Source: Nocardia nova SH22a (lineage in GTDB: Bacteria; Actinomycetota; Actinomycetes; Mycobacteriales; Mycobacteriaceae). Taken from it: a stretch of 64,000 nt of DNA. Location of the stretch: positions 4,154,001-4,218,000 of the forward strand of contig NZ_CP006850.1 of assembly GCF_000523235.1 (NCBI RefSeq), given 5' to 3'. The notes under the pieces were generated by a model. That model had not been told where the DNA came from, did no database searches, and saw only the letters and a list, made by a program, of their open reading frames with translations. This document shows, one piece after another, positions 16,078 to 42,711 of this stretch. The translations under genes and the position numbers were made by a program. Each line of letters opens with the position of its first letter. The stretch's first letter is position 1.

Positions 16078-17064
16078 CTACCGGATTCGGTGCTCGATGA
16101 CTCCGATGCCGTCGATTTCCAGTCGGAGTTCGTCGCCCGGGGCCAGCCAGCGGCCCAGCTCCATCCCGCTGCCGCCGGGCAGGGTGCCGGTGGCCAGCAG
16201 TTCGCCCGGATACAGTTGCTCGCTGCGGGAGACGTGCGCCAAGGCCTCGGGGATCGAGTACCGCATGCCGTGAGTTCCGGTGTACGCGAGGGTTTCTCCG
16301 TTGACGGACACGGTGGCGGTCAATGTGTCGAGCCGGTCGCCGACCGCCGAACCGGCGACGGCGGTGGTCGACATCGAGGACAGGAAATGTTTGGCGCGCT
16401 GGGGGCCGAATCCCGAACGCATCTCCGCGAGCTGCACATCGCGGGCCGAGAAATCGTTGACGACGACCACCGCGCCGATCGCCGCGGCGGCCTGTTCGAC
16501 GGTGGCGTCGCGCAGCGGCGCGTTCAGTACGACGCCGAGTTCGAGTTCGAAATCCAGCGCGCGGCTGTAGGAGGGGAACTCGACGGGCACACCGGAGGGC
16601 ACGATGGTCAAGGCGTTGGACATGTAGTAGATCGGCTCCCGGTACCACAGCGCGCTGGGGCGGAACGCGGGAAAGGTGCGGCGGGTCAGCGTCTCGTAGA
16701 TCCGGCTCAGCCGATGACCACCGGGAGCGAATCGCCGAGCCATGCCGCGCGCGGCCGCGACGGCGTGTTCCTCGAACAGCATGAAGTCCCGGAACGAGGC
16801 CGGACATACCGGCAGCACCGCGGTCCCGTCGGCCAGACCGAGCATCTCGTAGCGGGCCAGTTCGAATTCCGCGGTGAAGACCGGTGGGATGACGAAATCC
16901 GCTGGCACAGGGGAATTCTCGGTGACGGGTCGCCAACCGTCGCCGGTGTCGACGTGCAGGTCGACCCGTCCCTGGGAACGCTCGAGAATCCGCCGAATCC
17001 GGGGCAGCGGGATCCCGAGCAGGCCGTTTTTCGTCTGTCCCGAGTCGCCGAGTCCAGTGCTCAC
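16078..17064 (-). CDS. Fumarylacetoacetate hydrolase family protein (328 aa)
   Basis: Probable C-C bond hydrolase or related metal-dependent enzyme of the FAH superfamily. It has the metal-binding signature LDFELELGVVL and the VVVNDFSARDVQ loop, with a C-terminal ATGTLPGGSGMELGRWL in place of the usual FTGTPxG. It is longer than the two other FAH proteins in the window (283 residues each) and belongs to the branch nearer true fumarylacetoacetase. Last gene of the minus-strand cluster A operon, 34 bp downstream of the ACMSD-like gene. GTG start with GGAG 5 nt upstream. It probably cleaves a beta-diketone or acylpyruvate-type intermediate. Confidence 0.8.
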   Translation of the reverse strand: MSTGLGDSGQTKNGLLGIPLPRIRRILERSQGRVDLHVDTGDGWRPVTENSPVPADFVIPPVFTAEFELARYEMLGLADGTAVLPVCPASFRDFMLFEEHAVAAARGMARRFAPGGHRLSRIYETLTRRTFPAFRPSALWYREPIYYMSNALTIVPSGVPVEFPSYSRALDFELELGVVLNAPLRDATVEQAAAAIGAVVVVNDFSARDVQLAEMRSGFGPQRAKHFLSSMSTTAVAGSAVGDRLDTLTATVSVNGETLAYTGTHGMRYSIPEALAHVSRSEQLYPGELLATGTLPGGSGMELGRWLAPGDELRLEIDGIGVIEHRIR

Positions 17065-17098
17065 ATCATCTCCGTTCTTCGACCCGCACGATGCGCGG

Positions 17099-18070
17099 TC
17101 AAACGATGTCGTCCCGGTTCAGTGCGGGAAACAGTTCGCGGGCATGGTCGGTCGTCAGTTGCCGCCAGGTGCGCGCGCCCGGTGCCGGCGCGGCATCGAT
17201 CGAGGCGATCTGGGCGGCCACCGCGCCGGGCGGTGTCCAGCAGTAGTCGCTGCCGTAGAGCAACCGCTCGATGCCGAATGCGGCGTCCAATGCCGGAATC
17301 TGGTGCGGGAACGGCGTTCCCGCCATATCGAACCACAATCCGCGCAACTGCTCCGAGGTCGGCCGCCCCTGCCGCTCACCCGCGAACGCGGACCGGAACA
17401 GCTGGATGCGCTCGGCGACCAGCGGCAGCACGCCGCCGCCGTGGGTGAAGATCCACCGGATTCCGGAATAGCGCTCGAATACCCCGGCGTAGAGCAGATC
17501 GGTCACCGATCGCGCGGTGTCGAACAGGAATTCCAGCATCGGACGCGGCAGACCGACCGAAATCGACTCCGCGTGCGGCGGCGAGGTGGGGTGGACGAAC
17601 ACCACCGCTTCGCGGCGCTCGAGTTCGGCCCACACCGGATCGAAGTGGGCATCGCCGAGATAGCGGCCGTGCGCGTTGGTTTCGACCGCCACCCCGTCGC
17701 AGCCCAGCACATCGAGCGCATGGGCGATTTCGGTGAGCGATCCGTCGATATCGGGCAGCGGCAGCGCCGCGAGATGCCCGAACCGGCCGGGATGGTCCCG
17801 CACCACCGCGGCGCCGAATTCGTTGACCTCACGCGCGAGTTCGCGCGCGGCGGCATCGTCACCGAAGTGCACGCCGGGCGAGGACACCGACAGCATCGAG
17901 GTGGCGATGCCGGATTCGTCCATGAGTGCCAGATGCGCCCGCGGACTCCACTCCGGCCAGCCCGGCATTCCGTCGGGATGATCGTGTCCGGCCGCACGGG
18001 CGGCCGCGATGTAGCGGTCGGTGACGAAATGGGCGTGCACATCGATCAGCGGATCGAGCGACCTGGTCAT
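17099..18070 (-). CDS. Amidohydrolase of ACMSD/resorcylate decarboxylase type
   Basis: 323 residues of the amidohydrolase-2 family. It has the metal-binding IDVHAHFVT at the N-terminus, VFVHPTSPP in the middle, WIFTHGGGVLP (the conserved His with Gly run of the ACMSD group) and a final YGSDYCW carrying the catalytic Asp. Members are non-oxidative decarboxylases (aminocarboxymuconate semialdehyde, gamma-resorcylate) or hydrolases of ring-cleavage products. The ATG overlaps the stop of the upstream amidohydrolase by 4 nt (ATGA), showing translational coupling. It most likely acts on an aromatic acid or its ring-cleavage product in cluster A. Confidence 0.8.
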   Translation of the reverse strand: MTRSLDPLIDVHAHFVTDRYIAAARAAGHDHPDGMPGWPEWSPRAHLALMDESGIATSMLSVSSPGVHFGDDAAARELAREVNEFGAAVVRDHPGRFGHLAALPLPDIDGSLTEIAHALDVLGCDGVAVETNAHGRYLGDAHFDPVWAELERREAVVFVHPTSPPHAESISVGLPRPMLEFLFDTARSVTDLLYAGVFERYSGIRWIFTHGGGVLPLVAERIQLFRSAFAGERQGRPTSEQLRGLWFDMAGTPFPHQIPALDAAFGIERLLYGSDYCWTPPGAVAAQIASIDAAPAPGARTWRQLTTDHARELFPALNRDDIV

Positions 18071-19185
18071 GGTCGGCCTTTCTCGGCGGCGCGGGACGCG
18101 ACCGCGGGAGTGTATTCGGTTCCGGCGCACCAGATTCGGCGGATATTGCGGGTGGCGGTGATATCGGCGAGCGGATCGCCGTCGACCAGCACCAGATCCG
18201 CGCGCTTACCGGGTTCGACGACACCGCGATCGGGCATCCCGAAGTGCCGGGCCGGGAGCACCGTGGCCGCGCGCAGGGCGTCCACCGTGGACAGTCCCGC
18301 CTCGACCAGCAGTTCGAGTTCGCTGTGCAGACTCTCCCCGTGCGCCACCAGGCGCGGCAGTCCGGGTTGTTCGGCGGCGTCGGTGCCCGCCAGAATCGGG
18401 ACGCCCGCCGCGTGCAGCGCCGCGACGCCCGCACTCGCCCCGGCGAAGGCGTCGGCGGTACCGCGCATCGTCGCCAGTGCCCGCATCACCGTGAGGGTCG
18501 GAACTGCGACCCGATGGTCGGCGACCATCCGGGCGACCAGATTCTCCGCGACCGGCTCACCCGCCGGAATGTGGGTGATGACATCGGCGCCGAGTTCGAC
18601 CGCGGATTCGTAGGCCCCGTGCGAGGAGGCGTGCGCGACGACCTGCCGTCCCTGATCGTGGGCGGCGGCGATCACCGCGGCGGCCACGGCGGGATCGGGA
18701 CCGCCCTGTCCGGGCGCCTCGAGCACGATCTTGATGTAGTCGGCGCCCTCGGCGATCCGGTTCGCGACGAAGCGTGCGGCCTGCTCCGGATCGGCGAGGA
18801 CGGCCTCCTCGGGCATGCCGAAGTGGGAGTGCGGTCCGGCCGGGCCGATGACCGGCAGTCCGGCGCTGCGAATATCGGTGAGCCCGTGGGCGTTTCGCAG
18901 GGATCGCACCAGATCGGCGGGCCAGGTGGCCATGTCCAGGGCGGTGGTGACGCCCCAGGCCGCCAGCTGTTCGAGGGTGTCACGGCCGTGCAGGTGGATG
19001 TGGGCGTCGATCAGGCCGGGCAGCAGCACCGCGCCGTCCGCGTCGACGGTGTCGGCGGCATCGCCGGTCTCCGTGCCGATCACCGCACCGTCGATGATCA
19101 CCGTGCGCGGCGGCGACAAGCGCGTGCCGTCGAATACGCGGACGCCGGTCAGTGCCGTCCGATGGGTGGATGAGCTGGTGGTCAC
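18067..19185 (-). CDS. Imidazolonepropionase-like amidohydrolase (cluster A)
   Basis: Metal-dependent hydrolase of the amidohydrolase-1 superfamily, 372 residues. There is a beta-sandwich N-terminus (LTGVRVFDG), metal motif GLIDAHIHLH, EGADYIKIV with the bridging Lys, AHASSHGAYESAVELG, HIPAG, and the catalytic Asp in ILAGTDAAE. It ends with the family's RADLVLVDGDPL. Close relatives act on cyclic amides, lactones or prolidase-type substrates; this substrate is unknown. GTG at 19185 with AGGAG upstream. Paralogues lie at 33590-34756 and 44736-45992, each beside SnoaL-, FAH- or SDR-type genes. Confidence 0.8.
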   Translation of the reverse strand: MTTSSSTHRTALTGVRVFDGTRLSPPRTVIIDGAVIGTETGDAADTVDADGAVLLPGLIDAHIHLHGRDTLEQLAAWGVTTALDMATWPADLVRSLRNAHGLTDIRSAGLPVIGPAGPHSHFGMPEEAVLADPEQAARFVANRIAEGADYIKIVLEAPGQGGPDPAVAAAVIAAAHDQGRQVVAHASSHGAYESAVELGADVITHIPAGEPVAENLVARMVADHRVAVPTLTVMRALATMRGTADAFAGASAGVAALHAAGVPILAGTDAAEQPGLPRLVAHGESLHSELELLVEAGLSTVDALRAATVLPARHFGMPDRGVVEPGKRADLVLVDGDPLADITATRNIRRIWCAGTEYTPAVASRAAEKGRP

Positions 19186-19195
19186 CGGGTCGCTC

Positions 19196-19816
19196 CTATC
19201 GGGTCGCTGACGAGCGGTCAGTGTGCAGCCAGGTCTTACCTTCTCGTTCCAGTGCCCGGACCTCGTCGGGCCGGTCGTCGCCGAACAGATCGCCGCCGAC
19301 GGTGTAGCCGCGGCGATCGAGCACATACGACAGCATGCGGTAGGAGGGCCGGAAAGAGGCGAGAACCTCCGGTTCGATTCGCAACGGCGTCCCCGGGACG
19401 GCCGGGGTGAGGGTGTCGCGTTCGTAGACCGGATCGAGTGCGGTGATCAGCCAGCGCCCGTCGTATCGGCGCGCCCGGTAGATCAGCCGGGCGTAGGAGA
19501 CCAGATCGAGTTCGACATCGTCGAGGACGGTCCGGGTTTCGATACCCGCGCCGAGTTCGACCAGCGCCCGATCCCCGTCGATCTCCACGATCGGCGGATG
19601 CATGCGGTGCACGCCCTTGTCGCCGCGGGCGGCCATGTCCTCGGACGCGGTGACGAAGTCGGGTCCGTTGCCCCGGAACCAGCTCAGCCGCACCGCGCTG
19701 TCGCCGGCGTAGCAGGAGCGCATATCGTCCCACCAGTTTCGATCCCGGCACTGCCGCTCCCGCAGCACCAGCTGCCCGACGGCGACGGTATCGGCGGTGT
19801 GGTCACTCGTGGTCAT
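19196..19816 (-). CDS. SnoaL-like (NTF2 fold) protein, long type, cluster A
   Basis: 206 residues. The N-terminal half has an NTF2/SnoaL-like fold pattern (RDRNWWDDMRSCYAGDSAV and LSWFRGNG), followed by a C-terminal extension (PSYRMLSYVLDRRGY). It is a clear paralogue of 32904-33527, which has RDRNWWDRMERCF and LSWFSGTG at the same places. NTF2-fold proteins are often small hydratases, isomerases or hydrolases in aromatic and polyketide pathways. The ATG overlaps the upstream ligase stop by 4 nt. Confidence 0.75.
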   Translation of the reverse strand: MTTSDHTADTVAVGQLVLRERQCRDRNWWDDMRSCYAGDSAVRLSWFRGNGPDFVTASEDMAARGDKGVHRMHPPIVEIDGDRALVELGAGIETRTVLDDVELDLVSYARLIYRARRYDGRWLITALDPVYERDTLTPAVPGTPLRIEPEVLASFRPSYRMLSYVLDRRGYTVGGDLFGDDRPDEVRALEREGKTWLHTDRSSATR

Positions 19817-21858
19817 CGCGCATCACCGGCCTCGGCGAGAATACGGGCGGCATGATCGCGGTAGAAGGCGACGCTGTCCGGATCGGACAGGGCGTCGAGG
19901 TTGACCGCTCGTTCCACCGGCTGTCCCAGATACAACTTCTTGATCGGCACCTCGATCTTCTTTCCGGTATGTGTGGTGGGGATGGCGGGGGCGACGACGA
20001 TCTCGTCGGGCACGTACCGGGCGCCCGCGCGGGCGCGAATGGTCGCGACGATTCGCTCGCGCAGCTCGTCGGTCGCTTCCACGCCCGGTTCGAGAACGAC
20101 GAACAACGGCATGTAGTACCCGCCGCCGGGGCGTTCGACGCCGATGACCATGCTGTCGGCGATATCGGGCACCGCCCCGAGCGCCGCGTAGACATCCGCC
20201 GAGCCCAGCCGCACTCCCTGCCGGTTGAGCGTGGCATCGGAGCGTCCGTGCACGACGAACGCGCCGTCTTCGGTTTCGGTGATCCAATCGCCGTGCCACC
20301 ACACGCCGGGATAGCGATCGAAATACGCGGCGCGGTACTTCTCGTCGTTGTCGTCGTTCCAGAAGCGCAGCGGCATGGACGGCATCGGCGCGGTGATCAC
20401 CATCTCCCCCACCTCGTCGGCGACCCGCTCACCGCGGTCGTTCCACGCCTGCACGTCGACACCGAGCATGGGTCCCTGCGAGACCCCGATCCGCGCGGGT
20501 TCGAGCGGATTGGAACCGACGAAACACGAGCAGATATCGGTGCCGCCCGAATCCGACCCCAGATGCACTGCCGGGCCGAAGGTTTCGCGGACCCAGCGCC
20601 AGGTGGAGTCCGGCAGCGGCGAGCCGGTGGAGAAGATGAAACGCAGGGCCGTCAGGTCCAGGCCCGAGATGTCGGTAGCGGCCCGTTCGTTCAGTTGCAG
20701 ATAGGCCGCACCGGTCCCGAACAGAGTCGCCCCGGTCAGCGCCATATTGCGCAGATGCCGGTCCGGGCCGTCGTAGGTGGGTGAGCCGGAATAGGTGACG
20801 ACCGCGGCACCGGTGGACAGCGCGTTGACCATCGCGTTCCACACCATCCACGAGGTGTTGGCGGCGACATAGCAGATATCGTCGCTGCCGCAGTCGTACT
20901 GGAGGGCAAAGGATTTCAGCGATTCCAGCAGCATTCCGCCGTGGCCGTGCACGATTCCCTTCGGCGCGCCGGTGGTGCCCGAGGAGAACAGCACCCACAG
21001 CGGATGGTCGAATGCGGTGGTCTCGTACACCGGCGTCGCCGTGCGGCCGCTGAGTTCACCGAAATCGTGGACGGTCACATCGCGGGTGAGCCGCGGCGGC
21101 CGGTCCGCCGCGTCGATGATCAGGTGCCGGACGGACGGCAGCGCATCGGCCAGGGTAGTCAGCCGATCGGTGCACTCGATCGTCTTGCCGTTGAATCGGT
21201 ATGCGCCACAACCGATCAGAACCGTCGGAGCCAGCTGCGACAGCCGGGCCACGGTCGCCCGGACGGCCAGCTCCGGGGAGTTGACCGTCCAGATCGCGCC
21301 GACCGCGGCCGCGGCGAGCAGGCCGATGATCGCCTCCGGTGTATTCGGCAGCACGGCGGCCACCCGGTCCCCGGGCCGCACGCCCAGTTCGCGCAGTGCA
21401 GTCGCCAGCCCCGCGACCCGGTCGCGCAGTTCACGCCAGGTCAGCACCGTGACCGTCGCGGTCTCGCCGACCGTCACCACGGCCGCCCGCCCGGCCGAGC
21501 CGGGGTCCTCGGCGTGGCGGAGCAGATTCTCGGCGTAGTTGACCGTCGCGTCCGGGAACCAGCGCGCACCCGGCATGTCGGCAGCGGCCAGTGCGGTGCC
21601 CTGCAGGCCGGCTCCCAGGACGTCGAAATAGGTTGCGACGGTTGACCAGAACTCTCCCGGATCCGCTACCGACCACTCGTGGATCGCACGGTAGTCGGGT
21701 AGTTCACGCCCGATCCGAGCGCTCGCGGCACGCGCGAAGTCGGTCAGGCGCGCTGTCGCACGCGCCTGCTCGGTGGGCGCCCAGTCGATATCGGGCAGCC
21801 GTGTCCGGGACTGCTCGGTGTCGGCTCGAACCTGTGGAGTGCCAGTCGTTCCGGTCAT
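19813..21858 (-). CDS. Acetoacetate--CoA ligase
   Basis: 681 residues, the size of acetoacetyl-CoA synthetases (ACS-like, about 650-680). It activates acetoacetate or a similar beta-keto acid with ATP and CoA. It carries the acetyl-CoA-synthetase-type N-terminal domain (PGEFWSTVATYFD and MPGARWFPDATVNYAENLL), the adenylation motif VLFSSGTTGAPKGIVHGHGG, LGSDSGGTDI, and YPGVWWHGDW near the hinge. In the middle of the cluster A minus operon, between FAH and SnoaL genes. It probably activates the keto acid released by the FAH enzymes. ATG start with GAGAGAG upstream. Confidence 0.88.
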   Translation of the reverse strand: MTGTTGTPQVRADTEQSRTRLPDIDWAPTEQARATARLTDFARAASARIGRELPDYRAIHEWSVADPGEFWSTVATYFDVLGAGLQGTALAAADMPGARWFPDATVNYAENLLRHAEDPGSAGRAAVVTVGETATVTVLTWRELRDRVAGLATALRELGVRPGDRVAAVLPNTPEAIIGLLAAAAVGAIWTVNSPELAVRATVARLSQLAPTVLIGCGAYRFNGKTIECTDRLTTLADALPSVRHLIIDAADRPPRLTRDVTVHDFGELSGRTATPVYETTAFDHPLWVLFSSGTTGAPKGIVHGHGGMLLESLKSFALQYDCGSDDICYVAANTSWMVWNAMVNALSTGAAVVTYSGSPTYDGPDRHLRNMALTGATLFGTGAAYLQLNERAATDISGLDLTALRFIFSTGSPLPDSTWRWVRETFGPAVHLGSDSGGTDICSCFVGSNPLEPARIGVSQGPMLGVDVQAWNDRGERVADEVGEMVITAPMPSMPLRFWNDDNDEKYRAAYFDRYPGVWWHGDWITETEDGAFVVHGRSDATLNRQGVRLGSADVYAALGAVPDIADSMVIGVERPGGGYYMPLFVVLEPGVEATDELRERIVATIRARAGARYVPDEIVVAPAIPTTHTGKKIEVPIKKLYLGQPVERAVNLDALSDPDSVAFYRDHAARILAEAGDAR

Positions 21859-21872
21859 GCCGACTCTCTCGT

Positions 21873-22724
21873 TCAGGAGGCCACGAACTGCTGGCGCAGT
21901 TCGCCGATGCCGGAGATGTAGCTGACCAGTTCGTCACCGGGCTGCAGGAATCGCTGCGGGGTGCGTCCCGCGCCGACTCCGGCGGGAGTGCCGGTGAACA
22001 GCAGATCGCCGGGCAGCAGCGGAATCTTCTGCGAGAGTGCGGCTATCAACGCCGGGACCGAGAAGATCAGATCACGGGTACGGCCCTTCTGCATCTGCTC
22101 ACCGTTGACCGAGCAGCCGATCTCGAGATCGTCGCGGTTGTCGAATTCGTCGGCGGTGACCACCCACGGACCGGTCGGGCCGAAGCCGGGCAGCGATTTG
22201 CCGAGGCTGAATTGCGGTGAGGGACCGGCGGTTTGAGTGACCCGCTCGGAAATATCCTGGCCGACGGTGAGCCCGGCGACGTGATCCCACGCCTGCTCGG
22301 GAGAGATCTGATACGCCCGGGTGCCGATCACGGCGACGAGTTCGACCTCCCAGTCGGTCTTCCCGTCCGGCGGCAGCTGCACCTGGGTCACCGGTCCACT
22401 CAGGCACGACACCCACTTGGTGAACATCACCGTCGGCTGCTCGGGCACCGAGAATCCGGACTCCGAGGCGTGCTCGCTGTAGTTCAGCCCGATCGCCAGC
22501 ACCTGCCGCGGCGCCGGGACCGGCGCGCCGAGATCGGTGACGGCGAAAGCCTTTCCGGTGCCGGCGTCGGCATCGGCGGCCCAGGCCGCGAACTCCTCCC
22601 ACACCTCGTAGATCGACTGCGGATCCGGCCCGAAGCGACCGGAGCTGGCCTGTTCGACATCCAGCGCGGCGGAGCCGTCTGCGGAAATCAGGACGAGGCG
22701 GCCGGACAGATTGGCGATACGCAT
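21873..22724 (-). CDS. Fumarylacetoacetate hydrolase family protein (cluster A)
   Basis: 283 residues of the two-domain bacterial FAH type. The short N-terminal domain is MRIANLSGRLVLIS. The catalytic domain has GLNYSEHASE, DWEVELVAVIG (metal Glu), GQDISER (metal Asp) and the closing LLFTGTPAGVG. Family members hydrolyse acylpyruvates or decarboxylate/tautomerise oxaloacetate-like acids. Second gene of the operon, 26 bp after the flavin hydroxylase. ATG with AAGGAG upstream. Its near-twin in cluster B is 41486-42337. Confidence 0.85.
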   Translation of the reverse strand: MRIANLSGRLVLISADGSAALDVEQASSGRFGPDPQSIYEVWEEFAAWAADADAGTGKAFAVTDLGAPVPAPRQVLAIGLNYSEHASESGFSVPEQPTVMFTKWVSCLSGPVTQVQLPPDGKTDWEVELVAVIGTRAYQISPEQAWDHVAGLTVGQDISERVTQTAGPSPQFSLGKSLPGFGPTGPWVVTADEFDNRDDLEIGCSVNGEQMQKGRTRDLIFSVPALIAALSQKIPLLPGDLLFTGTPAGVGAGRTPQRFLQPGDELVSYISGIGELRQQFVAS

Positions 22725-22750
22725 GAAAATTCTCCTTGTCGGGACGATGG

Positions 22751-23953
22751 TCAGATCAGTGGGGTGATGGTCTCGTCGACGCCCAGCAGCGCCTTGCCGT
22801 AGATCTCGTAGTTCACCTGCGGTGAGACGATGGCGTGCCGGGCCGCCGTCGCCGAATCGCGCCAGATCCGTTGCAGCGGATTGACTTCGGCGAACGAGCC
22901 CGCACCGTGCGCGGACAACAGGATCTCGATCGCGCGGGTGACGCACTCGGCGACGTACCCGGTGTCGGACCGCATCCGCGCCCGGGTGAGGAAGTCCGGG
23001 TACTCACCGCGCGCGGCCGCCGCGTCGATCTCGTCGGCGGCGCGGTATGCGACCAGACGCGCGGTGTCGATGAGCCGGGCGGCCTCGGCGATCTGCAACT
23101 GGAAGCCGACCGACTCCTGCTGGGAGGTGAAGAAGGTGTAGGAGATCGGCTTGTTCGCGGCCTTGCCGATCACGTAATCCAGTGCCGCCTGGCCCATTCC
23201 GAGCTGCGGCCCGACCAGGACCAGCGCCAGGATCGGCACCAGCGCCGAGCGGTAGAGCGCCTCGTCGGTGTGTTCGGTGCCGTAGGTGCCGGTGATGGCG
23301 GGCGGGACGCGCAGCACCCGGTGTTCGGGTACGAAGACATCCTCGGCGATGAGGCAGTTGCTGCCCGAGGACCGCATACCCGCCACGAACCAGGTGTCCT
23401 GCAGGTCCAGATCGCCGCGCGGAATCAGCGCGGTCCCCTGGTCGACCACTGCGCCGGATTCGTCGGTGAGCGGAATGCCGAGTCCGGCCCAGGTCGCATG
23501 CCAGGAGCCGGAGTTGTAGAACCACTTTCCGGTCACCCGCCAGCCGCCGGGAACCTTGCGGGTCTCGGCCGTCGGCGCGAGCACGCCGGACACCTTGGCG
23601 TCGGGATCGGCGCCGAAGATGTCGTCCTGGGCTTGCTGCGGAAACAGTCCCGCCATCCAGTTGCACACATTGGTCAGGGTGAGCACCCACGCGGTGCCGC
23701 CGTCGGCCTCGGCGACCGCCGCCGACACCTCGAGCATGGTGCGCATCGAGGTCTCGTAGCCGCCGTAGCGCTTGGGGATCGCGAGTTTGAACAGTCCGGC
23801 CTCGGTCAGCGCCTGAATACTCTCCTCGGATACGCGCCGATTCTGTTCGCCCTCGGCCGCATTGCGGGCGAGCAGCGGTCGCAGTTCGCGGGCGCGGGCA
23901 ACCAGTTCCGCGGTGCCGGGTACCGGTGCGGCGTGGGTTTCGGTGGTGGTCAT
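22751..23953 (-). CDS. HsaA-like flavin-dependent hydroxylase (acyl-CoA dehydrogenase fold), copy 1
   Basis: 400 residues with the acyl-CoA-dehydrogenase fold. It matches the two-component group D flavin monooxygenases (HsaA, C2-HpaH type) rather than dehydrogenases: PKRYGGYETSMRTML, EADGGTAWVLTLTN, GGWRVTGKWFYNSGSWHA, SSGSNCLIAEDVFVPEHR and a C-terminal IEILLSAHGAGSF. Such enzymes use reduced flavin from a partner reductase to hydroxylate phenols. I chose the ATG at 23953 over one five codons upstream because of GGAG 6 nt before it. First gene of the minus operon, behind operator-like sites. Over 80% identical by eye to 26781-27977. Confidence 0.82.
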   Translation of the reverse strand: MTTTETHAAPVPGTAELVARARELRPLLARNAAEGEQNRRVSEESIQALTEAGLFKLAIPKRYGGYETSMRTMLEVSAAVAEADGGTAWVLTLTNVCNWMAGLFPQQAQDDIFGADPDAKVSGVLAPTAETRKVPGGWRVTGKWFYNSGSWHATWAGLGIPLTDESGAVVDQGTALIPRGDLDLQDTWFVAGMRSSGSNCLIAEDVFVPEHRVLRVPPAITGTYGTEHTDEALYRSALVPILALVLVGPQLGMGQAALDYVIGKAANKPISYTFFTSQQESVGFQLQIAEAARLIDTARLVAYRAADEIDAAAARGEYPDFLTRARMRSDTGYVAECVTRAIEILLSAHGAGSFAEVNPLQRIWRDSATAARHAIVSPQVNYEIYGKALLGVDETITPLI

Positions 23954-24013
23954 CTTCGTCTCCTGCATCCGAGGCTCCGCGGTGAGGGAAGTACCGATCC
24001 GTCCGGGTCGGCT

Positions 24014-24031
24014 AATTCATCATGTTTAATT
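24014..24031. promoter_or_regulatory. Operator-like inverted repeat A1
   Basis: AATTCATCATGTTTAATT, an imperfect palindrome centred on CATG. It lies about 60 bp upstream of the flavin hydroxylase copy 1 start. It belongs to a set of five related sites (see A2-A5) in the three regulatory gaps around the cluster A GntR gene. Probable binding site of that regulator. Confidence 0.65.
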
Positions 24032-24084
24032 CCCTTGCCCACAGTGTTGAAGTGATCCGGGTCACCTGTCAAGAGGGTTCGCGA

Positions 24085-24102
24085 AATTAATCATGATGAA
24101 TT
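24085..24102. promoter_or_regulatory. Operator-like inverted repeat A2
   Basis: AATTAATCATGATGAATT, a near-perfect palindrome 71 bp from A1 (start to start). The two lie between the divergent hydroxylase copy 1 (minus) and aldo/keto reductase (plus) genes, so one pair of sites could control both promoters. Confidence 0.7.
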
Positions 24103-35916: not shown

Positions 35917-37131
35917 TCAGATGAGCGGACTGATCTGATCGTCGCGGCCGAGCAGCGCCTTGCCGTAGATCTCGTAGCCGACGGCGGGCAGCGTCACCGC
36001 ATGCCGGGCGGCCACCGCCGAATCACGCCAAATCCGTTGCAGGGGATTGACTTCGGCGAAACTTCCGGCCCCGTGCGCGAACAGCAGGATGTCGATGGCC
36101 TTGGTGACGCATTCGAGTACCCGCGCGACGTCGGCGCGCACCCGCGCCCGCCCGAGCACATCCGGATAGGCGCCGTTGCGGGCGGCGGTGTCGATATCGT
36201 CGGCGGCGCGGTAGGCGTGCAGGGTGGCGGTGTCGATCAGCATGGCGGCCTCGGCGACCTGCATCTGGAAGGCCACCGAATCGGCCTGCGCGGTGTAGAA
36301 GGTGTACGAGATCGGCTTCTTGGCCGCCTTCTCGGTGACGAGTCGCAGGGCCTTGCGGCCGAGGCCGAGCTGCGGACCGGCGAGGATCAGCGCGAGCAAC
36401 GGCACCAGCGCGGCGCGGTAGTACTCCTCCTCGGTCCGTTCGGTCGCATAGGTTCCCTCGATCGCGGGCGGCACCGACATGATGCGGTGATCGGGCACGA
36501 AGACATCGGTGGCGACCAGGCAGTTCGAGCCCGACGATTTCATGCCCGCGACGAACCAGGTCTCCTCGAGATCCATGTCCGAGCGCGGAATCAAGGCGAG
36601 CGCCTGGTCGACGACCTCACCCTTGTCGTCGGTGATCGGGATGCCGAGCACCGCCCAGGTGGCGTGCCAGGAACCGGAGTTGTAGTACCACTTTCCGGTC
36701 ACGCGGAATCCGCCGTCCACCTTGACCACCTCGGCGGTCGGCGCCAACACGCCGGATACCTTGGCCTCGGGGTCGGCGCCCCAGACCTCGTCCTGCGCGC
36801 GCTCGGAGAACAGGGCGGCCAGCCAGGCGCAGCCGTTGCACAGCGTCACCACCCAGGCCGTACCGCCGTCGGCCTCCCCCACCGCCGCGGACACGTCGAG
36901 CATGGTGCGCATCGAAGTCTCGTATCCCCCATACCTTTTCGGCACCGACGTCCTGAAGATCCCCGCCTCGGTCAGCGCGGTGACGGTCTCCTCGACCACG
37001 CGCCGATCCTGCTCCCCCTGGGCCGAGTTCTTCGCGATGAGCGGTTGCAGAGCCCGGACCCGCTCCACCAGCTCCTCCGCGGAGGGTACGGGCGTGGACG
37101 CCGAGGCGAGTGGTTCGGTGACGCTGGTCAT
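35917..37131 (-). CDS. HsaA-like flavin-dependent hydroxylase, copy 3 (cluster B)
   Basis: 404 residues, third member of the family: PKRYGGYETSMRTML, EADGGTAWVVTLCN, GKWYYNSGSWHATW, SSGSNCLVATDVFVPDHR and IDILLFAHGAGSF. It is more diverged than the other two copies are from each other. It lies 28 bp downstream of its own flavin reductase (37160-37696), giving cluster B a complete two-component hydroxylase. The ATG at 37131 lies behind a GAAGGGA sequence; codons upstream of it overlap the reductase gene and are not family-like. Confidence 0.82.
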   Translation of the reverse strand: MTSVTEPLASASTPVPSAEELVERVRALQPLIAKNSAQGEQDRRVVEETVTALTEAGIFRTSVPKRYGGYETSMRTMLDVSAAVGEADGGTAWVVTLCNGCAWLAALFSERAQDEVWGADPEAKVSGVLAPTAEVVKVDGGFRVTGKWYYNSGSWHATWAVLGIPITDDKGEVVDQALALIPRSDMDLEETWFVAGMKSSGSNCLVATDVFVPDHRIMSVPPAIEGTYATERTEEEYYRAALVPLLALILAGPQLGLGRKALRLVTEKAAKKPISYTFYTAQADSVAFQMQVAEAAMLIDTATLHAYRAADDIDTAARNGAYPDVLGRARVRADVARVLECVTKAIDILLFAHGAGSFAEVNPLQRIWRDSAVAARHAVTLPAVGYEIYGKALLGRDDQISPLI

Positions 37132-37159: not shown

Positions 37160-37696
37160 TCAGTACGAGCACGCGGAAATGAGGTCGACGATGGGCAGGC
37201 GCGGCCGCTCGCTGAAGCGGGAATGCGTGCCGAACGTGCGGCGCGAGTAGACCAGTGGCGGCAGCTCGGAGGTGCCGGCCGCGGTGACGAGGCCGAACAG
37301 CAGCAGGTGGTCACCCCCGTCCACCTCGCGGTAGAGGTCGCACACCACCCATCCGGCCGCGCGGTCCAACCGCGGCAGTCCGTCCTCGTAGCGCCAGGCG
37401 GTTCCGGTGAATCTGTCGGCTCCGCGGCGGGCGAACAGCACGGCCAGATCCTCTTGATCGTGGCCCAGCAGATTCACCCCGAACCGGCGCGAACGCTGGA
37501 TGCGGGTGAGCATCGACGCGGTCCGCTCGAAGGCCACCGTGATCAGGGGCGGATCCAGCGACAGCGACGCGAACGAGCTGACCGTGGCGCCGTACGGCGC
37601 GCCGTCACAGGCCGTCGTGACGATGGTGACCGGTGCGCAGACACCGGCCATCAGTTCGCGGCAGCGCTGGGAATCGATGGGAACGCTTGTAGTCAC
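37160..37696 (-). CDS. HsaB-like flavin reductase, cluster B
   Basis: 178 residues, paralogue of 26232-26750: MAGVCAPVTIVTTA, GATVSSFASLSLDPPL, FGVNLLGHDQEDLAVLF, GDHLLLFGLVT and RRTFGTHSRF. It supplies reduced flavin to the hydroxylase copy 3. GTG start with GGAG upstream. First gene of the minus operon running to the P450; cluster B operator-like elements lie upstream. Confidence 0.85.
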   Translation of the reverse strand: MTTSVPIDSQRCRELMAGVCAPVTIVTTACDGAPYGATVSSFASLSLDPPLITVAFERTASMLTRIQRSRRFGVNLLGHDQEDLAVLFARRGADRFTGTAWRYEDGLPRLDRAAGWVVCDLYREVDGGDHLLLFGLVTAAGTSELPPLVYSRRTFGTHSRFSERPRLPIVDLISACSY

Positions 37697-38053: not shown

Positions 38054-39601
38054 TCAGTGCGACGAGACCGGGGTGCCGTCCGGATCGTCCACGATCTTGC
38101 GGAGTTCGCGCTTGAGCACTTTGCCGGTCGAGTTCTTCGGCAGCGTCTCGGCTATCACGAAACGGCGGGGCTTCTTGAACGATGCCAGATGCGCTCGGCA
38201 GAACTCCACGAGTTCCTGTTCACTCACCGCCGCCTCCGGCGCCGGCACCACCACCGCGCACACCGACTCCCCCCACTCCCGGTCGGGAATTCCGATCACC
38301 GACGCCTCGGCGATCGAATCATGCTGCAGCAGCACCTCTTCCACCTCACGCGGATACACATTGGATCCTCCGGTGATGATGACGTCCTTCACGCGATCGG
38401 TGAGGAACAGATAGCCCTCGTCATCGAGATAGCCGACGTCGCCGGTGTGCAACCAGCCGTCGGTGAGCGCCGCCGCGGTCGCGTCGGGGTTGTCCCAGTA
38501 CCCGGCCATCACCACGTCGCCGCGCACGCACACCTCACCGGGCACACCCGGCCCGGCCCACTGCCCGTTGCCGTCGCCGACCCGCACGACGACTCCGGTG
38601 AATGCCCGGCCACTCGATCCGGGATGCGATGTCGCGTCCGGATCGTGTGCCCGCATGGTCGTAATGGTCATCGGCGCTTCGCCCTGACCGTAGATCTCGG
38701 TGATGATCGGGCCGAACAGGGCGCGCGCGGCCGCGAGGTCGTGGGCATAGAGCGGTGCCCCGCCGACCACGATGCTGCGCAGACTCGCGATATCGCGTCC
38801 GTCCCGATTCCCGTCCGCCACCAGCCGATGCAGCATCGTGGGCGCCAGGAAGGCGGCGTGGGTCACCCGATGGCGCTCGACGGCGGCGAAATACGCCGCC
38901 GCACCGAACTTTCCGGTGTCGAGGATGATGTTGCTCGCACTCCTGGCCAGCGCGGGCAGCAGATACAGCCCGCTGCCGTGGGTGAGCGGCGCGGCATGGA
39001 GGAATACCGCGTCATCGGCGATGGGATCGATATCGCCCAGGTAGTTCAGGGTCATCGCCAGCAGGTTGCGGTGACCCAGGATCGCGCCCTTGGGGCGGCC
39101 GGTGGTGCCGGAGGTGTAGAACAGCCAGGCCGGGTCGGTGCCGGCGCACTCACGCGGCGGTAACGGGGAGTCATCGCCGATCAGCTCGGTATAGCCCAGC
39201 CCGCCGGTCTCGTCGGCACCGTCTCCATCGGCATCGATCAACAGCGGGGAGCCGATGTCGGATCGCAGTTCGCCGGGTGCCGCTCCGGAGATGAAAACCG
39301 CTCGCGCACCGCAATTCCGGACGATGAAGGCGACCTCGCCGGGATGCAGGTGCCAGTTCACCGGCACCGCGACGAATCCGCCCCAGAAGCAGCCGAACAG
39401 CACCTCGATCAGCGTCGGACTGTTGGGCAGATCGATCACGACGCGATCCCCGGGCCGAATCCCCCGCTCGCTCAGACCCCGCGCCACCGCCTGCGCTCGC
39501 GCGGCCAGGTCGCGGTAGGACGCCGTCCGGTCACCGAATGTCCACGCCGGATGATCGGGCCTGCGCCGGGCGCTGGAGACGAGAAGCTCGACAACATTCA
39601 C
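38054..39601 (-). CDS. AMP-forming acyl-CoA ligase (cluster B)
   Basis: 515 residues of the ANL superfamily, size of fatty-acyl/aryl-acid CoA ligases. It has LFYTSGTTGRPKGAIL (P-loop), YGQGEAPMT (A5), WLHTGDVGYLDDEGY with the hinge region, and a C-terminal NSTGKVLKRELR with the catalytic Lys. It probably activates the acid substrate or a pathway acid; specificity is unknown. The GTG at 39601 has GGAGG 6 nt upstream; longer in-frame extension overlaps the divergent GntR gene and is rejected. Confidence 0.88.
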   Translation of the reverse strand: MNVVELLVSSARRRPDHPAWTFGDRTASYRDLAARAQAVARGLSERGIRPGDRVVIDLPNSPTLIEVLFGCFWGGFVAVPVNWHLHPGEVAFIVRNCGARAVFISGAAPGELRSDIGSPLLIDADGDGADETGGLGYTELIGDDSPLPPRECAGTDPAWLFYTSGTTGRPKGAILGHRNLLAMTLNYLGDIDPIADDAVFLHAAPLTHGSGLYLLPALARSASNIILDTGKFGAAAYFAAVERHRVTHAAFLAPTMLHRLVADGNRDGRDIASLRSIVVGGAPLYAHDLAAARALFGPIITEIYGQGEAPMTITTMRAHDPDATSHPGSSGRAFTGVVVRVGDGNGQWAGPGVPGEVCVRGDVVMAGYWDNPDATAAALTDGWLHTGDVGYLDDEGYLFLTDRVKDVIITGGSNVYPREVEEVLLQHDSIAEASVIGIPDREWGESVCAVVVPAPEAAVSEQELVEFCRAHLASFKKPRRFVIAETLPKNSTGKVLKRELRKIVDDPDGTPVSSH

Positions 39602-39656: not shown

Positions 39657-39660
39657 TTCG
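39647..39660 (+). promoter_or_regulatory. -10 box of a leaderless GntR transcript
   Basis: TACTAT at 39647-39652 fits TANNNT. Seven nt later comes the GTG start codon at 39660, the normal distance to +1. There is no ribosome-binding site before that GTG, so the mRNA probably begins at the start codon. Confidence 0.5.
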
Positions 39661-40400
39661 TGACTACCGAGCCGACTGCACCGACCCCCTCCACCGCACC
39701 CCGCACGCGGCTGCGCCCGGTGGTGAGCGCCGATTCTGCCGTCGACCGGGTGACCGCCGAGATCAGGCGCGGTGTGCTCAACGGTTCCCTCGCGCCCGGC
39801 TCGAAGTTCTCGATCGCCGAACTGAGTACGGAACTGGGAGTCAGTCATATTCCGGTGCGAGAAGCGTTGCGGCGCCTGGAGGCCCAGGGTCTGGTCACAC
39901 TCCGCCGCGGCCGCAGCGCGCAGGTCAGCCCGCTCGATCGCGAAGAGTTCCGCAGCATCTATCGGCTGCGCAAACTCATCGAACCGGATCTCGCGGCGCG
40001 CGCGTGCCCGCAGCTCACCGGCGATGATCTGGACACGGCCGCGCACCTGCTGAAGGAATATATCGACAGCAGCAGGGATTCCGACGAGCTGTGGGAACTG
40101 CACCAGCAATTCCACCTCACCCTGCTGCGACCGGCGCTGACCGGGTGGGATATGCGAATCCTCGATCAGCTGTGGCATGCCAGCGACCGCTACACGCGCG
40201 TCGTGTACGAGACCTACAACGTCGACGCCGACGAGCGGCATCGTCGCGAAATCGCCCATCGAATCCTCATCGACGCTGCTCGCACGGGATCTCCCAGCGA
40301 ACTCAGGAACGCTGTCGCCGAACATCTCGCCGAGCACGAACTCACCTGCCTGGAGTGGATGGCGGCGCTGAACTCCAGCCGGGCCGCCGACGGCCGGTAA
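39660..40400 (+). CDS. GntR/FCD family transcriptional regulator (cluster B)
   Basis: 246 residues. A winged helix lies at about 27-92 (VTAEIRRGVLNGSLAPGSK, ELGVSHIPVREALRRLEAQG, LVTLRRG), then the FCD ligand-binding domain (LRKLIEPDLAARAC, WELHQQFHLTLL, and RREIAHRILIDAA with metal/ligand His). It differs in sequence from the cluster A regulator and is flanked by a different operator motif. It probably controls the ligase, hydroxylase and NmrA-FAH-SnoaL transcripts. Leaderless GTG start. Confidence 0.88.
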   Translation: MTTEPTAPTPSTAPRTRLRPVVSADSAVDRVTAEIRRGVLNGSLAPGSKFSIAELSTELGVSHIPVREALRRLEAQGLVTLRRGRSAQVSPLDREEFRSIYRLRKLIEPDLAARACPQLTGDDLDTAAHLLKEYIDSSRDSDELWELHQQFHLTLLRPALTGWDMRILDQLWHASDRYTRVVYETYNVDADERHRREIAHRILIDAARTGSPSELRNAVAEHLAEHELTCLEWMAALNSSRAADGR

Positions 40401-40487
40401 CCGGATGCAGGCCACCTCCGCCGCAGGGTGCGTTGGCCGGCACATTCCTGCTCACCATTCCTCGAAGTCGACTCTCGGCGGGTTGCA

Positions 40488-40503
40488 GAATATATCGTAG
40501 CGA
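40488..40503. promoter_or_regulatory. Operator-like element B4
   Basis: GAATATATCGTAGCGA; its complement reads GCTACGATATATTC, matching the inverted form of B3. It lies about 100 bp upstream of the NmrA-like gene and so would bring the 40.6-42.7 kb operon under the same regulator. Confidence 0.55.
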
Positions 40504-40595
40504 GTATGCTCCAGATCACGATCTGTTGCAGGCCTCGCTACCGCCGCCATGGTCGACATCGTCAGCCGCACCCACTTCGAGAATGGGAGTACGTC

Positions 40596-41489
40596 ATGGC
40601 CGTTCTGGTCCTCGGCGCGACAGGAAATATCGGACCGCACGTCGTTCGGGGGTTGGTCGAGCGCGGCGCCGCGGTACGGGTGCTCACCCGGGACGCCGGT
40701 CGCGCGCGGGCGATGCTGCCCGACGGTGTCGAGATCGTCGCAGGCGATATCGGAGATCCCGCGCACATCGTCTCCGCCGCAACGGATGTGGAGTCGGTAT
40801 TTCTGCTGACCCCGCATGCGGCGGATATGGCCGACATCCAGTTGCGCATCATCCGGTCGCTGCGGCGCGTGTCGGCCCGGATCGTCAAACTGTCGGGCAC
40901 CGCCTCGGCCATCACCCCGAACGGCCCGCTGACCTGTCGCGAACACTGGGAGATCGAACAGATCCTCACCGCCAGCGGGCAGCCCTATACGATTCTGCGC
41001 CCCAATGCGTTCATGCAGGTTCTGATCGATCAGATCATGATTCCGGCGCTGCGCGTCCAGGGCGCGATCCCGAACGCCATCGCCGACTCGGGTATCAGCC
41101 TGATCGACGTCCGCGACATCGCTGATGCGGCGGTGGCCGCCCTCACCGACAATGGTTGGGAGGGAAGGACATTGACGCTGACCGGACCGCGTTCGGTGAC
41201 CTACCCCGATATCGCGCGGCTGATCGGTTCGCAGGTCGGGGTCACGATCGACACCAACGACATCACCCCCGCCGTAGTTCGCGCCGGACTTCTCGAACGC
41301 GGTATGCAGCCGTGGGAGGCGGAGCATTTCGAGGAGATGTATCAGCTGTTCCGCGACGGCCGATCCGAATTCGTCTCCGACGACGTCCGGCAGGTGACCG
41401 GCCGCGAGCCACGCACGATCGAAGACTATCTCGCAGAACGGAAAACGATGCTGACCGAAGCCCTGCACCCCGAGGTGGCGAGCCGATGA
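40596..41489 (+). CDS. NmrA-like NAD(P)-binding protein
   Basis: 297 residues, atypical SDR of the NmrA/HSCARG group. The nucleotide-binding VLVLGATGNIGPHVV lies at the N-terminus, followed by AVRVLTRD, VFLLTPH, LSGTAS and YTILRPNAFMQ. The catalytic YxxxK of classical SDRs is absent, as usual in this group. Members reduce quinones or unsaturated carbonyls or act as redox sensors. ATG with GGGAG upstream. First gene of a tightly coupled three-gene operon. Confidence 0.8.
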   Translation: MAVLVLGATGNIGPHVVRGLVERGAAVRVLTRDAGRARAMLPDGVEIVAGDIGDPAHIVSAATDVESVFLLTPHAADMADIQLRIIRSLRRVSARIVKLSGTASAITPNGPLTCREHWEIEQILTASGQPYTILRPNAFMQVLIDQIMIPALRVQGAIPNAIADSGISLIDVRDIADAAVAALTDNGWEGRTLTLTGPRSVTYPDIARLIGSQVGVTIDTNDITPAVVRAGLLERGMQPWEAEHFEEMYQLFRDGRSEFVSDDVRQVTGREPRTIEDYLAERKTMLTEALHPEVASR

Positions 41490-42337
41490 GAATCGCCAAT
41501 ATCGACAACCGGCTGTGCCTGGTCGAGAACGAGAAGTATGTCGACGTGGCGCAGGCCAGCGACAATCGCTTCGGCCCCGATGTCCAGTCGGTCTACGACC
41601 GGTGGGACGAGTTCGCCGACTGGTTCGCATCCGGCCACCGCGAGGCGGACCCGTCGCCGGTGAGCGGGCAGGTCGGCGCCCCGGCCCCGCGCCCGTCGCA
41701 GGCGTTCGGGGTCGGACTCAATTACGCCGACCACGTCGCCGAGGCGGATCTCGCGATACCGGACCGGCCGCTGATCTTCCCGAAATACTCCTCGTGCATC
41801 GCCGGACCCGACGAACCGCTGCTGGTGGACAACGAAACCGTCGACTGGGAGGCCGAACTCGTCGTCGTCATCGGCCGCCGCGCCCGCCACGTCGACGCTT
41901 CGGATGCCTGGAACCACGTCGCCGGACTGACCGTCGGACAGGACATCAGTGATCGCGGCCTGCAATGGGCCGATCCGGCCGCTCCGGAACACGGTCTGGC
42001 GAAATCGAAACCCGGTTACGGCGTGCTCGGCCCGGTGCTGGTCACGCCGGACGAATTCACCGACCGGAGCGATCTGGCGATCAGCTGTCACCTCGACGGC
42101 GAACAGGTGCAGGCGTCGCGGACCGGTCAGCTGATCTTCGACATCCCCACACTCATCTCGTACCTGTCGGGCATTCTCACGCTGAACCCGGGCGATGTCA
42201 TCTTCACCGGCACACCGTCCGGCGTCGGCATGACCCGCACGCCGCCACGCTATCTCGGCGACGGGAACATCCTGCGCACCGAGATCGAGGGTATCGGGGT
42301 GCTCACCACCCGCACCACGACAGGACGGGCACGATGA
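41486..42337 (+). CDS. Fumarylacetoacetate hydrolase family protein (cluster B)
   Basis: 283 residues, exactly the length of its cluster A twin (21873-22724), and starting alike (MRIANIDNRLCLVE). It has GVGLNYADHVAEADL, DWEAELVVVIG, GQDISDR and VIFTGTPSGVGM, so the metal-binding Glu/Asp set is complete. The ATG overlaps the NmrA stop by 4 nt. Probably hydrolyses the ring-cleavage product of cluster B or a derived acylpyruvate. Confidence 0.85.
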   Translation: MRIANIDNRLCLVENEKYVDVAQASDNRFGPDVQSVYDRWDEFADWFASGHREADPSPVSGQVGAPAPRPSQAFGVGLNYADHVAEADLAIPDRPLIFPKYSSCIAGPDEPLLVDNETVDWEAELVVVIGRRARHVDASDAWNHVAGLTVGQDISDRGLQWADPAAPEHGLAKSKPGYGVLGPVLVTPDEFTDRSDLAISCHLDGEQVQASRTGQLIFDIPTLISYLSGILTLNPGDVIFTGTPSGVGMTRTPPRYLGDGNILRTEIEGIGVLTTRTTTGRAR

Positions 42338-42711
42338 CGACCACCCGGTCCGTCCCCGACCTGGAACGCACCCGCATCGCGGCCATGGTCGCAGGCGATA
42401 TCGACACCCTCGCGACGCTGCTGAACGACTCCTGCGTCTACATCCACTCCACCGGCGCGGTGGATACCGGACAGTCCTATCTGGACAAACTGCGACGGGG
42501 CGAATTCGGTTACGACGCAATCGATGTCGACGAGATGTCGACGATCACCGAAGGCGATGTCACAGTCATCGCCTTCCGGATGTCCGCGGATATCCGGGTC
42601 GGCGATCAGCACCGCCACTCGGTGAGCCGCTGCACCGCAGTGTGGAGCGCACCGGGCTCCCTCATCTGCTTCCAGGCCACACCGCTGGGATCCGCCGCCG
42701 ACGAGCAGTAG
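42334..42711 (+). CDS. SnoaL/NTF2-like small protein
   Basis: 125 residues with a single NTF2 fold (RIAAMVAGDIDTLATLLND, CVYIHSTGAVDTGQSYLDKLRRGE). This is the DUF4440-like pattern with His/Asp/Tyr in the pocket. The ATG overlaps the FAH stop by 4 nt. Last gene of the operon, before a strong terminator. Function inferred only as a pathway isomerase or hydratase. Confidence 0.75.
   Translation: MTTTRSVPDLERTRIAAMVAGDIDTLATLLNDSCVYIHSTGAVDTGQSYLDKLRRGEFGYDAIDVDEMSTITEGDVTVIAFRMSADIRVGDQHRHSVSRCTAVWSAPGSLICFQATPLGSAADEQ

Follow-up and report, generated by a model that had tools for sequence, protein, structure and literature searches.

Introduction

The ipp genes of Rhodococcus sp. D-6, which serve 2-isopropylphenol degradation, comprise genes for a group D oxygenase, a flavin reductase, a VOC dioxygenase, an FAH-like protein and an acetoacetyl-CoA synthetase-like protein (PMC12442392). 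In Pseudomonas mandelii 7HK4, hcdABC serve 7-hydroxycoumarin degradation by way of a hydroxylase, a type I extradiol enzyme acting on a trihydroxyphenyl ring and then an FAH-family protein (PMC6222606). A third set, 'pathway VIII' of R. jostii RHA1 and R. ruber Chol-4, described as having an unknown substrate, includes an acyl-CoA-dehydrogenase-like oxygenase, an FMN oxidoreductase, a 2,3-dihydroxybiphenyl dioxygenase II, a possible FAH and an acetoacetyl-CoA synthetase (PMC6498646). As far as these reports describe them, the three are the nearest relatives of two adjoining gene clusters of Nocardia nova SH22a, A and B, that are the subject of this work, and cluster A resembles each of them in the genes just named. 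Both clusters lie in a stretch of 64,000 nucleotides, positions 4,154,001-4,218,000 of the one-contig 8.35-Mb genome (hereafter the window, whose own numbering is used).

When the ring to be cleaved bears a para or additional hydroxyl, the product is a beta-diketo compound; FAH enzymes hydrolyse it, leaving a 3-oxo acid. Plain catechols give cleavage products for HsaD-type hydrolases. The steps of the orcinol pathway belong to the same general background. DntG, an FAH-family protein, has been described as a bifunctional isomerase/hydrolase next to trihydroxytoluene oxygenase. Trihydroxytoluene and trioxoheptanoate appear among the pathway steps given for a symbiont (PMC8571283). In R. ruber/RHA1, genes for an FAH and an acetoacetyl-CoA synthetase are reported within a homogentisate cluster (PMC6498646).

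An earlier note on this DNA had read positions 16078-42711 as two paralogous clusters for the degradation of aromatic rings. From gene content and family assignment, we think it rather likely that A and B each represent, as separate members, the known aerobic class of phenol pathway that yields a beta-diketo acid, a route closer to the breakdown of orcinol and homogentisate than to that of steroids. The ring that is opened would carry a para-related or third hydroxyl, and the product would be a beta-diketo acid rather than a dienoate of the HsaC/BphC type. The pathway class is already known; the gene combination, a defined operator and a VOC protein with a His-Gln-Glu site seem to be new. In the open-access literature we found no characterised cluster in exact synteny, the finding that the earlier note had set against its own reading, and no title on orcinol gene clusters was among the matches listed.

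Cluster A and its predicted pathway

Genes were called from the GC content of reading frames and assigned to families with Pfam and NCBIfam. Cluster A occupies 16078-31564:

16078-17064, minus strand: FAH2, second FAH-family protein (PF01557, 147 bits; 31% identity to FAH1)
17099-18070, minus strand: Amd2, Amidohydro_2, decarboxylase-type candidate (PF04909)
18067-19185, minus strand: Amd1, Amidohydro_1, binuclear-metal type (PF01979)
19196-19816, minus strand: long SnoaL_4/NTF2-like protein (PF13577; 47% to B copy)
19813-21858, minus strand: A_Lig, putative acetoacetate--CoA ligase (TIGR01217, NF002937)
21873-22724, minus strand: FAH1, 2,4-diketo-acid hydrolase-type (PF01557, 214 bits)
22751-23968, minus strand: HsaA1, group D flavin monooxygenase oxygenase (HsaA model 285 bits, cut-off 450)
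24093-25124, plus strand: aldo-keto reductase (AKR) (PF00248)
25164-26006, minus strand: A_GntR, GntR/FCD regulator (PF07729, 42 bits; PF00392 below cut-off)
26190-26750, plus strand: HsaB-like flavin reductase (PF01613, 123 bits; HsaB model 93 bits, cut-off 230)
26781-27977, plus strand: HsaA2, group D oxygenase (HsaA model 285 bits; 84% to HsaA1; 85% to the Amycolatopsis rubida homologue of L032)
28003-28965, plus strand: A_ABH, alpha/beta hydrolase (PF00561, 30 bits, scored on a longer frame)
29022-29945, plus strand: A_VOC, two-domain VOC extradiol dioxygenase (PF00903)
29972-31564, plus strand: type-B carboxylesterase (PF00135, 392 bits, scored on a longer frame)

All three oxygenases of A and B match PF08028/PF02771 and are accompanied by separate reductases (A's recognised by PF01613, B's by NCBIfam), as in group D two-component systems. 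A_VOC has the features of a type I extradiol dioxygenase, a 2-His-1-carboxylate triad with second-sphere His and Tyr: H147, H202, E254, H188, H235 and Y244 are invariant in 12 of 12 sequences and align with BphC, and we take H147, H202 and E254 to be the iron triad. The best sequence match of FAH1 in the PDB is a putative HpcE (6v77, 324 bits), followed by L-2,4-diketo-3-deoxyrhamnonate hydrolase (8gsr, 171 bits). A_Lig exceeds the cut-offs of both of its models (TIGR01217, 701.8 bits against an equivalog cut-off of 520.9; NF002937, 791.9 against 639) and is by family an acetoacetate--CoA ligase, its activity being putative. By the logic of orcinol and hydroquinone pathways, an FAH together with an acetoacetate--CoA ligase suggests a beta-diketo ring-cleavage product in A, and this pair suggests rings of the resorcinol/orcinol or hydroquinone type rather than plain catechols. 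Resorcinols and acylphloroglucinols, among the candidate substrates of the earlier note, fit this gene content, and our best single guess for A is an orcinol/orsellinate-type or alkylresorcinol-type compound.

In the pathway proposed for A, the esterase, Amd1 and Amd2 might trim a larger phenolic compound, first at an ester, amide or lactone and then at a ring carboxylate, leaving a simple phenol of the resorcinol or alkylphenol type; that such trimming and ring decarboxylation come before hydroxylation is a guess from the gene families. HsaA1/HsaA2 with HsaB would hydroxylate this phenol to a tri- or para-dihydroxybenzene, as expected of their family, and the two-domain VOC, with the residues of known extradiol enzymes, would cleave the ring. 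FAH1 would hydrolyse a C-C bond of the diketo product, in line with its family and its conserved pairing with the other core genes, and the ligase would activate the resulting acetoacetate or other 3-oxo acid.

The two amidohydrolases are less easily placed. In Amd1, H62, H64, K152, H185, H205 and D269 are invariant in an alignment of 22 sequences, and these are presumably the binuclear-metal residues; its PDB matches are weak and are amide and urea hydrolases, its length is 372-382 aa, and the three closest amidohydrolase relatives among the matches listed are from Nocardia (78-82%). A profile of six Amd2 sequences matched best a PDB entry of unknown function (2f6k, 204 bits), then 5-carboxyvanillate (99 bits), gamma-resorcylate (89 bits) and isoorotate/uracil-5-carboxylate (88 bits) decarboxylases, with ACMSD (72 bits) and LigJ/LigY (43-27 bits) below them. 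An ACMSD function for Amd2 is disfavoured by the somewhat higher scores of the ring-acid decarboxylases, a weak argument.

In both clusters, according to the earlier note, FAH proteins appear to replace the hydrolase HsaD; that FAH is present and an HsaD-type hydrolase missing agrees with the scores of the three alpha/beta hydrolases: A_ABH reaches 17.6 bits on the HsaD model against a cut-off of 400, which rules it out as HsaD, and the carboxylesterase and the HSL-type hydrolase of B match esterase/lipase models. A_ABH had no PDB match at E<=1e-3; it is perhaps exported, its N-terminus resembling a signal peptide by eye. The families that the note had named were confirmed by Pfam and NCBIfam, and its inventory of A was incomplete, since A has two HsaA-like genes, 84% alike, together with the second FAH, the decarboxylase-type Amidohydro_2, the aldo-keto reductase, the carboxylesterase and the alpha/beta hydrolase. 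Three of the genome's 14 PF01557 matches, and three of its eight HsaA-model matches at E<=1e-40, fall in the region of A and B (0.3% of the genome). A Uma2-domain protein is encoded immediately to the left of A, at 14797-15993 on the plus strand.

The described relatives also differ from the N. nova clusters. IppB is 211 aa long with a His-His-Glu site, whereas A_VOC has two domains and B_VOC a Gln at the second His; the ipp gene table contains no amidohydrolase, SnoaL or GntR/FCD gene, and the likeness in the FAH-like gene, whose role there is putative, is one of gene content (PMC12442392). The hcd hydroxylase is a class A flavoprotein rather than a group D two-component enzyme, and the operon as described is without a ligase or amidohydrolase (PMC6222606). 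'Pathway VIII' is listed without an amidohydrolase and with an AsnC regulator and RibBA-type, TfdB-type and 'DUF1486' genes (PMC6498646). The full ipp-type gene set is present in A and not in B, where the ligase is of another type. We take DUF1486 to be an older designation of a SnoaL family.

Regulation of cluster A

The window contains five copies of a palindromic operator, AATTNATCATGATNAATT, at up to 3 mismatches, against none in 100 shuffles. Genome-wide the operator has four copies at up to 2 mismatches, all at the two promoters of A (reversed control, 0), and A is therefore probably one regulon. The copies in the window, given without strand, are:

24014-24031: operator at the HsaA1 promoter, 1 mismatch
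24085-24102: operator at the HsaA1 promoter, perfect match, containing the first ATG codons of the AKR frame
26078-26095: weak operator copy, 3 mismatches
26112-26129: operator upstream of the HsaB promoter, 2 mismatches
26182-26199: operator downstream of the HsaB promoter, 1 mismatch

Between the two operators of each pair, 24014/24085 and 26112/26182, lies a TTGACA-type promoter with a 17-bp spacer (hexamers assigned by eye). A_GntR is most likely the repressor of both A operons, with the paired operators as candidate binding sites, and would be relieved by the substrate. Its homologues adjoin core genes in two foreign loci, L032 and L124 (71% and 66%). The AKR start probably lies downstream of 24093, at 24156 or 24195, and the true start of the HsaB-like gene is probably 26232. 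The spacers of both A promoters (26100-26245 and 23940-24110) also hold GTGA-N6-TCAC, which we take to resemble a CRP/GlxR site. At B there is no operator copy at up to 3 mismatches, which was the ground for rejecting common regulation of A and B.

In a scan of loci outside the window that required a CATG core, operator pairs 69-71 bp apart were found before orthologous genes in L116, L117, L118 and L121, one clear copy and a degenerate second in L032, and one copy in L124; the scanned stretches of L123, L125, L122, L115 and L129 held no good copy, and neither did those of three further loci considered below.

Conservation of the core

The A-type hydroxylase is rare. HsaA2 was matched in 9 of 397 genomes of the order at E<=1e-120 and in 2 of 396 genomes of a phylum sample at E<=1e-110, the host being counted each time. 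Ten foreign loci from eight genomes, with the host's fourth HsaA copy, were chosen by hydroxylase similarity alone. FAH1 homologues of at least 55% identity are present in all ten foreign loci and A_VOC homologues of at least 57% in nine; the locus without an A-type VOC (L122) holds a one-domain VOC instead. The reductase-hydroxylase-FAH-VOC core of A thus recurs across genomes, its hydroxylase-FAH-VOC part being found in three families of the order and, in a looser form, on proteobacterial plasmids. The other genes are met less often in these ten loci: the A-type ligase in 3, Amd1 in 3, Amd2 (at least 60%) in 2 and SnoaL in 2. Homologues of A_Lig lie beside the core in L116, L119, L124, L032 and L130.

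Two loci, both uncharacterised, share HsaB, HsaA, FAH, VOC, acetoacetate-type ligase, Amd1, Amd2 and SnoaL with A. One is from Amycolatopsis rubida (L032, found through Amd1), which also has the GntR/FCD gene; the other, found through HsaA, is on plasmid pBCI1-2 of Pseudonocardia EC080619-01 (L130), which also has the AKR (50%). Unlike A, both have a single HsaA and no carboxylesterase homologue in the stretch, and L130 has RibB and other regulators. The plasmid is typed mobilizable, and its source is given as Apterostigma dentigerum, a fungus-growing ant.

A scan of plasmids with the hydroxylase matched 526 records, and the surroundings were viewed for five of the 15 listed. A looser set with a 59% hydroxylase lies on a plasmid of Paraburkholderia D15, a lichen isolate (L128). 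In L121 the hydroxylase is split over two frames (10768-11990), a possible frameshift, pseudogene or assembly error. Amd1 was dropped as a pathway marker: 56 of the 80 loci listed for it have no other cluster gene at E<=1e-12, and it is therefore a common stand-alone family.

Cluster B and its VOC protein

Cluster B runs from 31585 to about 45992. By gene spacing it extends beyond 42711, the right end of the stretch considered in the earlier note:

31585-32847, minus strand: cytochrome P450 (PF00067, 109 bits)
32904-33527, minus strand: long SnoaL_4/NTF2-like protein (Pfam 23.2, just below the cut-off of 24; 47% to A copy)
33590-34738, minus strand: Amidohydro_1 (PF01979; 54% to A copy)
34749-35348, minus strand: B_VOC, one-domain VOC, His18-Gln90-Glu138 (PF00903)
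35917-37131, minus strand: HsaA-like group D oxygenase (HsaA model 270 bits, cut-off 450)
37160-37696, minus strand: HsaB-like flavin reductase (HsaB model 104 bits, cut-off 230)
38054-39601, minus strand: FadD-type acyl-CoA ligase (PF00501, 270 bits; NF004837, 433 bits, cut-off 476)
39660-40400, plus strand: GntR/FCD regulator (PF00392, PF07729)
40428-41489, plus strand: NmrA-type NAD(P)-binding protein (PF05368)
41486-42337, plus strand: FAH (PF01557, 198 bits; 47% to A FAH1)
42334-42711, plus strand: small DUF4440/NTF2-like protein (PF14534)
42951-43958, plus strand: HSL-type alpha/beta hydrolase (PF07859, 149 bits; LipP1 model 152 bits, cut-off 350)
43951-44733, plus strand: SDR dehydrogenase (PF13561, 212 bits)
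44736-45992, plus strand: second Amidohydro_1 (PF01979, 81 bits; 37-38% to the other two Amidohydro_1)

The P450, the NmrA protein, the second Amidohydro_1, the SDR, the lipase-like hydrolase and the small DUF4440/NTF2 protein were not in the earlier inventory. B would use the same hydroxylase, FAH, Amd1 and SnoaL steps as A. Its one-domain VOC is unrelated to that of A, its ligase is of the FadD type and it has a P450 as well; on account of these three it probably handles a different side chain.

In B_VOC, Gln90 is kept in all 120 homologues listed of the 4316 found; H18 and E138 are each conserved in 119 of the same 120, the exceptions being a gap and a Lys, respectively. Position 90 aligns with a His of XylE, presumably the second iron ligand of that enzyme, and with a His of 9u42, so that B_VOC, with Gln90 for the second His, departs from the 2-His-1-carboxylate pattern of type I extradiol dioxygenases. 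The entry 9u42, a one-domain VOC, is titled homogentisate 1,2-dioxygenase, which hints by analogy that para-diols can be substrates of one-domain VOC proteins. An AlphaFold2 model of B_VOC (pLDDT 93) gave generic VOC matches in a fold search. The Gln is also kept in three more distant plasmid relatives (L126, L127 and L133), each with an FAH annotation nearby and, in L126 and L127, an aromatic hydroxylase annotation; the one-domain VOCs of L128, L122, L115 and L034 have His at this position. In L140 an FAH homologue adjoins a B_VOC homologue. That the His18-Gln90-Glu138 subfamily still opens aromatic rings and feeds an FAH is conceivable, and we hold it to be doubtful.

At E<=1e-40, B_VOC was matched in 2 of 397 genomes of the order (host counted), and four of the 120 listed relatives are organism-named, all of them Pseudomonadota; a horizontal origin of B_VOC is suggested.

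Between B_VOC and the B oxygenase a 152-aa frame (35419-35877, minus strand) has a good codon GC pattern and a CxxC and HxH stretch of HIT-type look by eye, with no Pfam match at E<=0.1. B is adjoined on the minus strand (46781-56601) by a CoA-type catabolic block with a CaiB transferase, an SDR, an enoyl-CoA hydratase, a luciferase-like monooxygenase, a SnoaL_4 protein, a FadD-type ligase, a thiolase and a ChsH2-OB-domain protein.

Relationship between the two clusters

Eight functions had been taken as paralogous between A and B. In blastp comparisons within the window this stands for HsaA (71-72% identity), the reductase (59%), Amidohydro_1 (54%), FAH (47%, or 48% without masking) and the long SnoaL (47%). 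It does not stand for VOC (22% over 140 aa, E 0.004), the ligase (25% over 528 aa) and GntR/FCD (33% over 46 aa, E 0.004), which match as families only; the ligases are of different types, acetoacetate--CoA ligase by NCBIfam in A and FadD-type acyl-CoA ligase in B.

The blastp scores of the five A/B pairs were compared with tblastn scores against 121 loci of other genomes and records. In four pairs both members score higher against some foreign gene than against each other, with a small margin for the B SnoaL (184 bits foreign against 174 bits to the A copy). In the HsaA pair the A copies score 648 and 668 against foreign genes and 589/578 against B, and the best foreign score of B is 587, a tie. 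Foreign relatives are therefore about as close or closer, which rules out a recent local duplication, and the duplicated and diverged pathway of the earlier note is not upheld in that sense. The two clusters thus resemble gene sets that were assembled separately or that diverged long ago. In a hydroxylase tree of 15 rows the A copies group with A. rubida, and B groups with a paralogue from its own genome and relatives of the same order; support is modest, two of 12 inner branches being strong, neither of them a branch that places A or B.

This fourth HsaA lies outside the window at 5.47 Mb (L115, 5.459-5.479 Mb) and is 76-77% identical to that of B. Its neighbours are a one-domain VOC that keeps the His, a GntR 44% like that of B, P450-like genes, a class A hydroxylase and a transketolase-like gene.

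Alternative readings

Several observations weigh against a route through beta-diketo acids. The residue set of A_VOC is that of ordinary catechol extradiol enzymes, so its substrate may be a catechol; membership of the FAH family fits a hydrolase or an isomerase/decarboxylase alike; B_VOC is without the second iron His; and the substrates and activities given here for A and B are predictions from their genes. For the ipp cleavage product the authors propose dehydrogenation and reduction, not hydrolysis by FAH (PMC12442392). Amd1, Amd2 and SnoaL occur in only two or three of the ten core loci, and where they act in the pathway is therefore guesswork. At E<=1e-10 no FAH1 or A_VOC homologue was found in the stretches of L115 and of plasmid loci L129 and L132 (53-58% hydroxylases), and L128 and L131 (56-59% hydroxylases) have nothing more than an FAH homologue of 37% identity; the presence of the hydroxylase by itself is thus no sure sign of the pathway. 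L119, L120 and L130 carry most of the A genes, and no good operator copy was found in the parts of them that were scanned.

One alternative is ordinary catechol meta-cleavage, in which HsaAB would make a catechol, the VOC would open it and the FAH would act as a hydratase/decarboxylase of the 2-hydroxypentadienoate/oxalocrotonate type, following a hydrolase or dehydrogenase not seen here. All catalytic residues of A_VOC align with those of BphC and catechol 2,3-dioxygenases, and PF01557 includes MhpD-type enzymes (PMC7356986). However, no meta-cleavage product hydrolase, semialdehyde dehydrogenase, aldolase or acylating aldehyde dehydrogenase is among the called genes of A and B, the A ligase is of the acetoacetate type, and MhpD does not figure among the NCBIfam and PDB matches of FAH1, which comprise HpcE/HpaG, 2,4-diketo acid hydrolases and hydrolases of fumaryl- and maleylpyruvate. 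We regard this course as unlikely.

Less probable again is an N-heterocyclic substrate of the hydroxypyridine, indole or quinolone type, which the flavin oxygenase would hydroxylate, the VOC or Amidohydro_1 would open and the FAH would finish by cleaving the leftover acylpyruvate. XiaF is the best PDB match of HsaA1, and the title of a XiaF paper speaks of cryptic indole hydroxylation. In the kpi cluster, KpiC, an Amidohydro_1 protein, is reported as an extradiol dioxygenase acting on 3,4-dihydroxypyridine, and an alpha/beta hydrolase, an FAH and a FadR-type regulator are also present (PMC7356986). Yet KpiC has 475 aa and closest homologues that include enamidase, and KpiA is a member of PF01494 rather than a group D enzyme (PMC7356986), whereas the A/B hydroxylases belong to PF08028 and Amd1, of the length and with the amide and urea hydrolase matches given above, is set apart from KpiC by description. 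The called genes of A and B also include no transporter.

That A and B are copies of the steroid-type HsaABCD pathway is scarcely credible and ruled out on model scores, for although the hydroxylase and reductase families are the same, and the label HsaA-like is right as to family, the oxygenases score 270-285 bits against a cut-off of 450 and so are not HsaA itself, A and B are without an HsaD-type hydrolase, and the genes over the cut-offs, two HsaA (678 and 638 bits) and one HsaC (560 bits), sit elsewhere in the genome, one of the HsaA genes about 0.9 kb from HsaC.

Implications

Read as members of the beta-diketo acid class, two clusters first described as paralogous become a testable pathway class, and the defined operator makes an inducer screen easy. 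One near-complete version of A is carried on the Pseudonocardia plasmid typed mobilizable. If the His-Gln-Glu subfamily is active, a dioxygenase would be able to cleave rings with His, Gln and Glu at its metal site, and such a site would be used across phyla, more distant Gln members standing beside FAH genes on Paraburkholderia, Variovorax and Rhodococcus opacus plasmids, with an annotated aromatic hydroxylase gene nearby as well in Paraburkholderia and Variovorax. Such an activity would alter the criteria by which ring-opening enzymes are identified from genome sequences.

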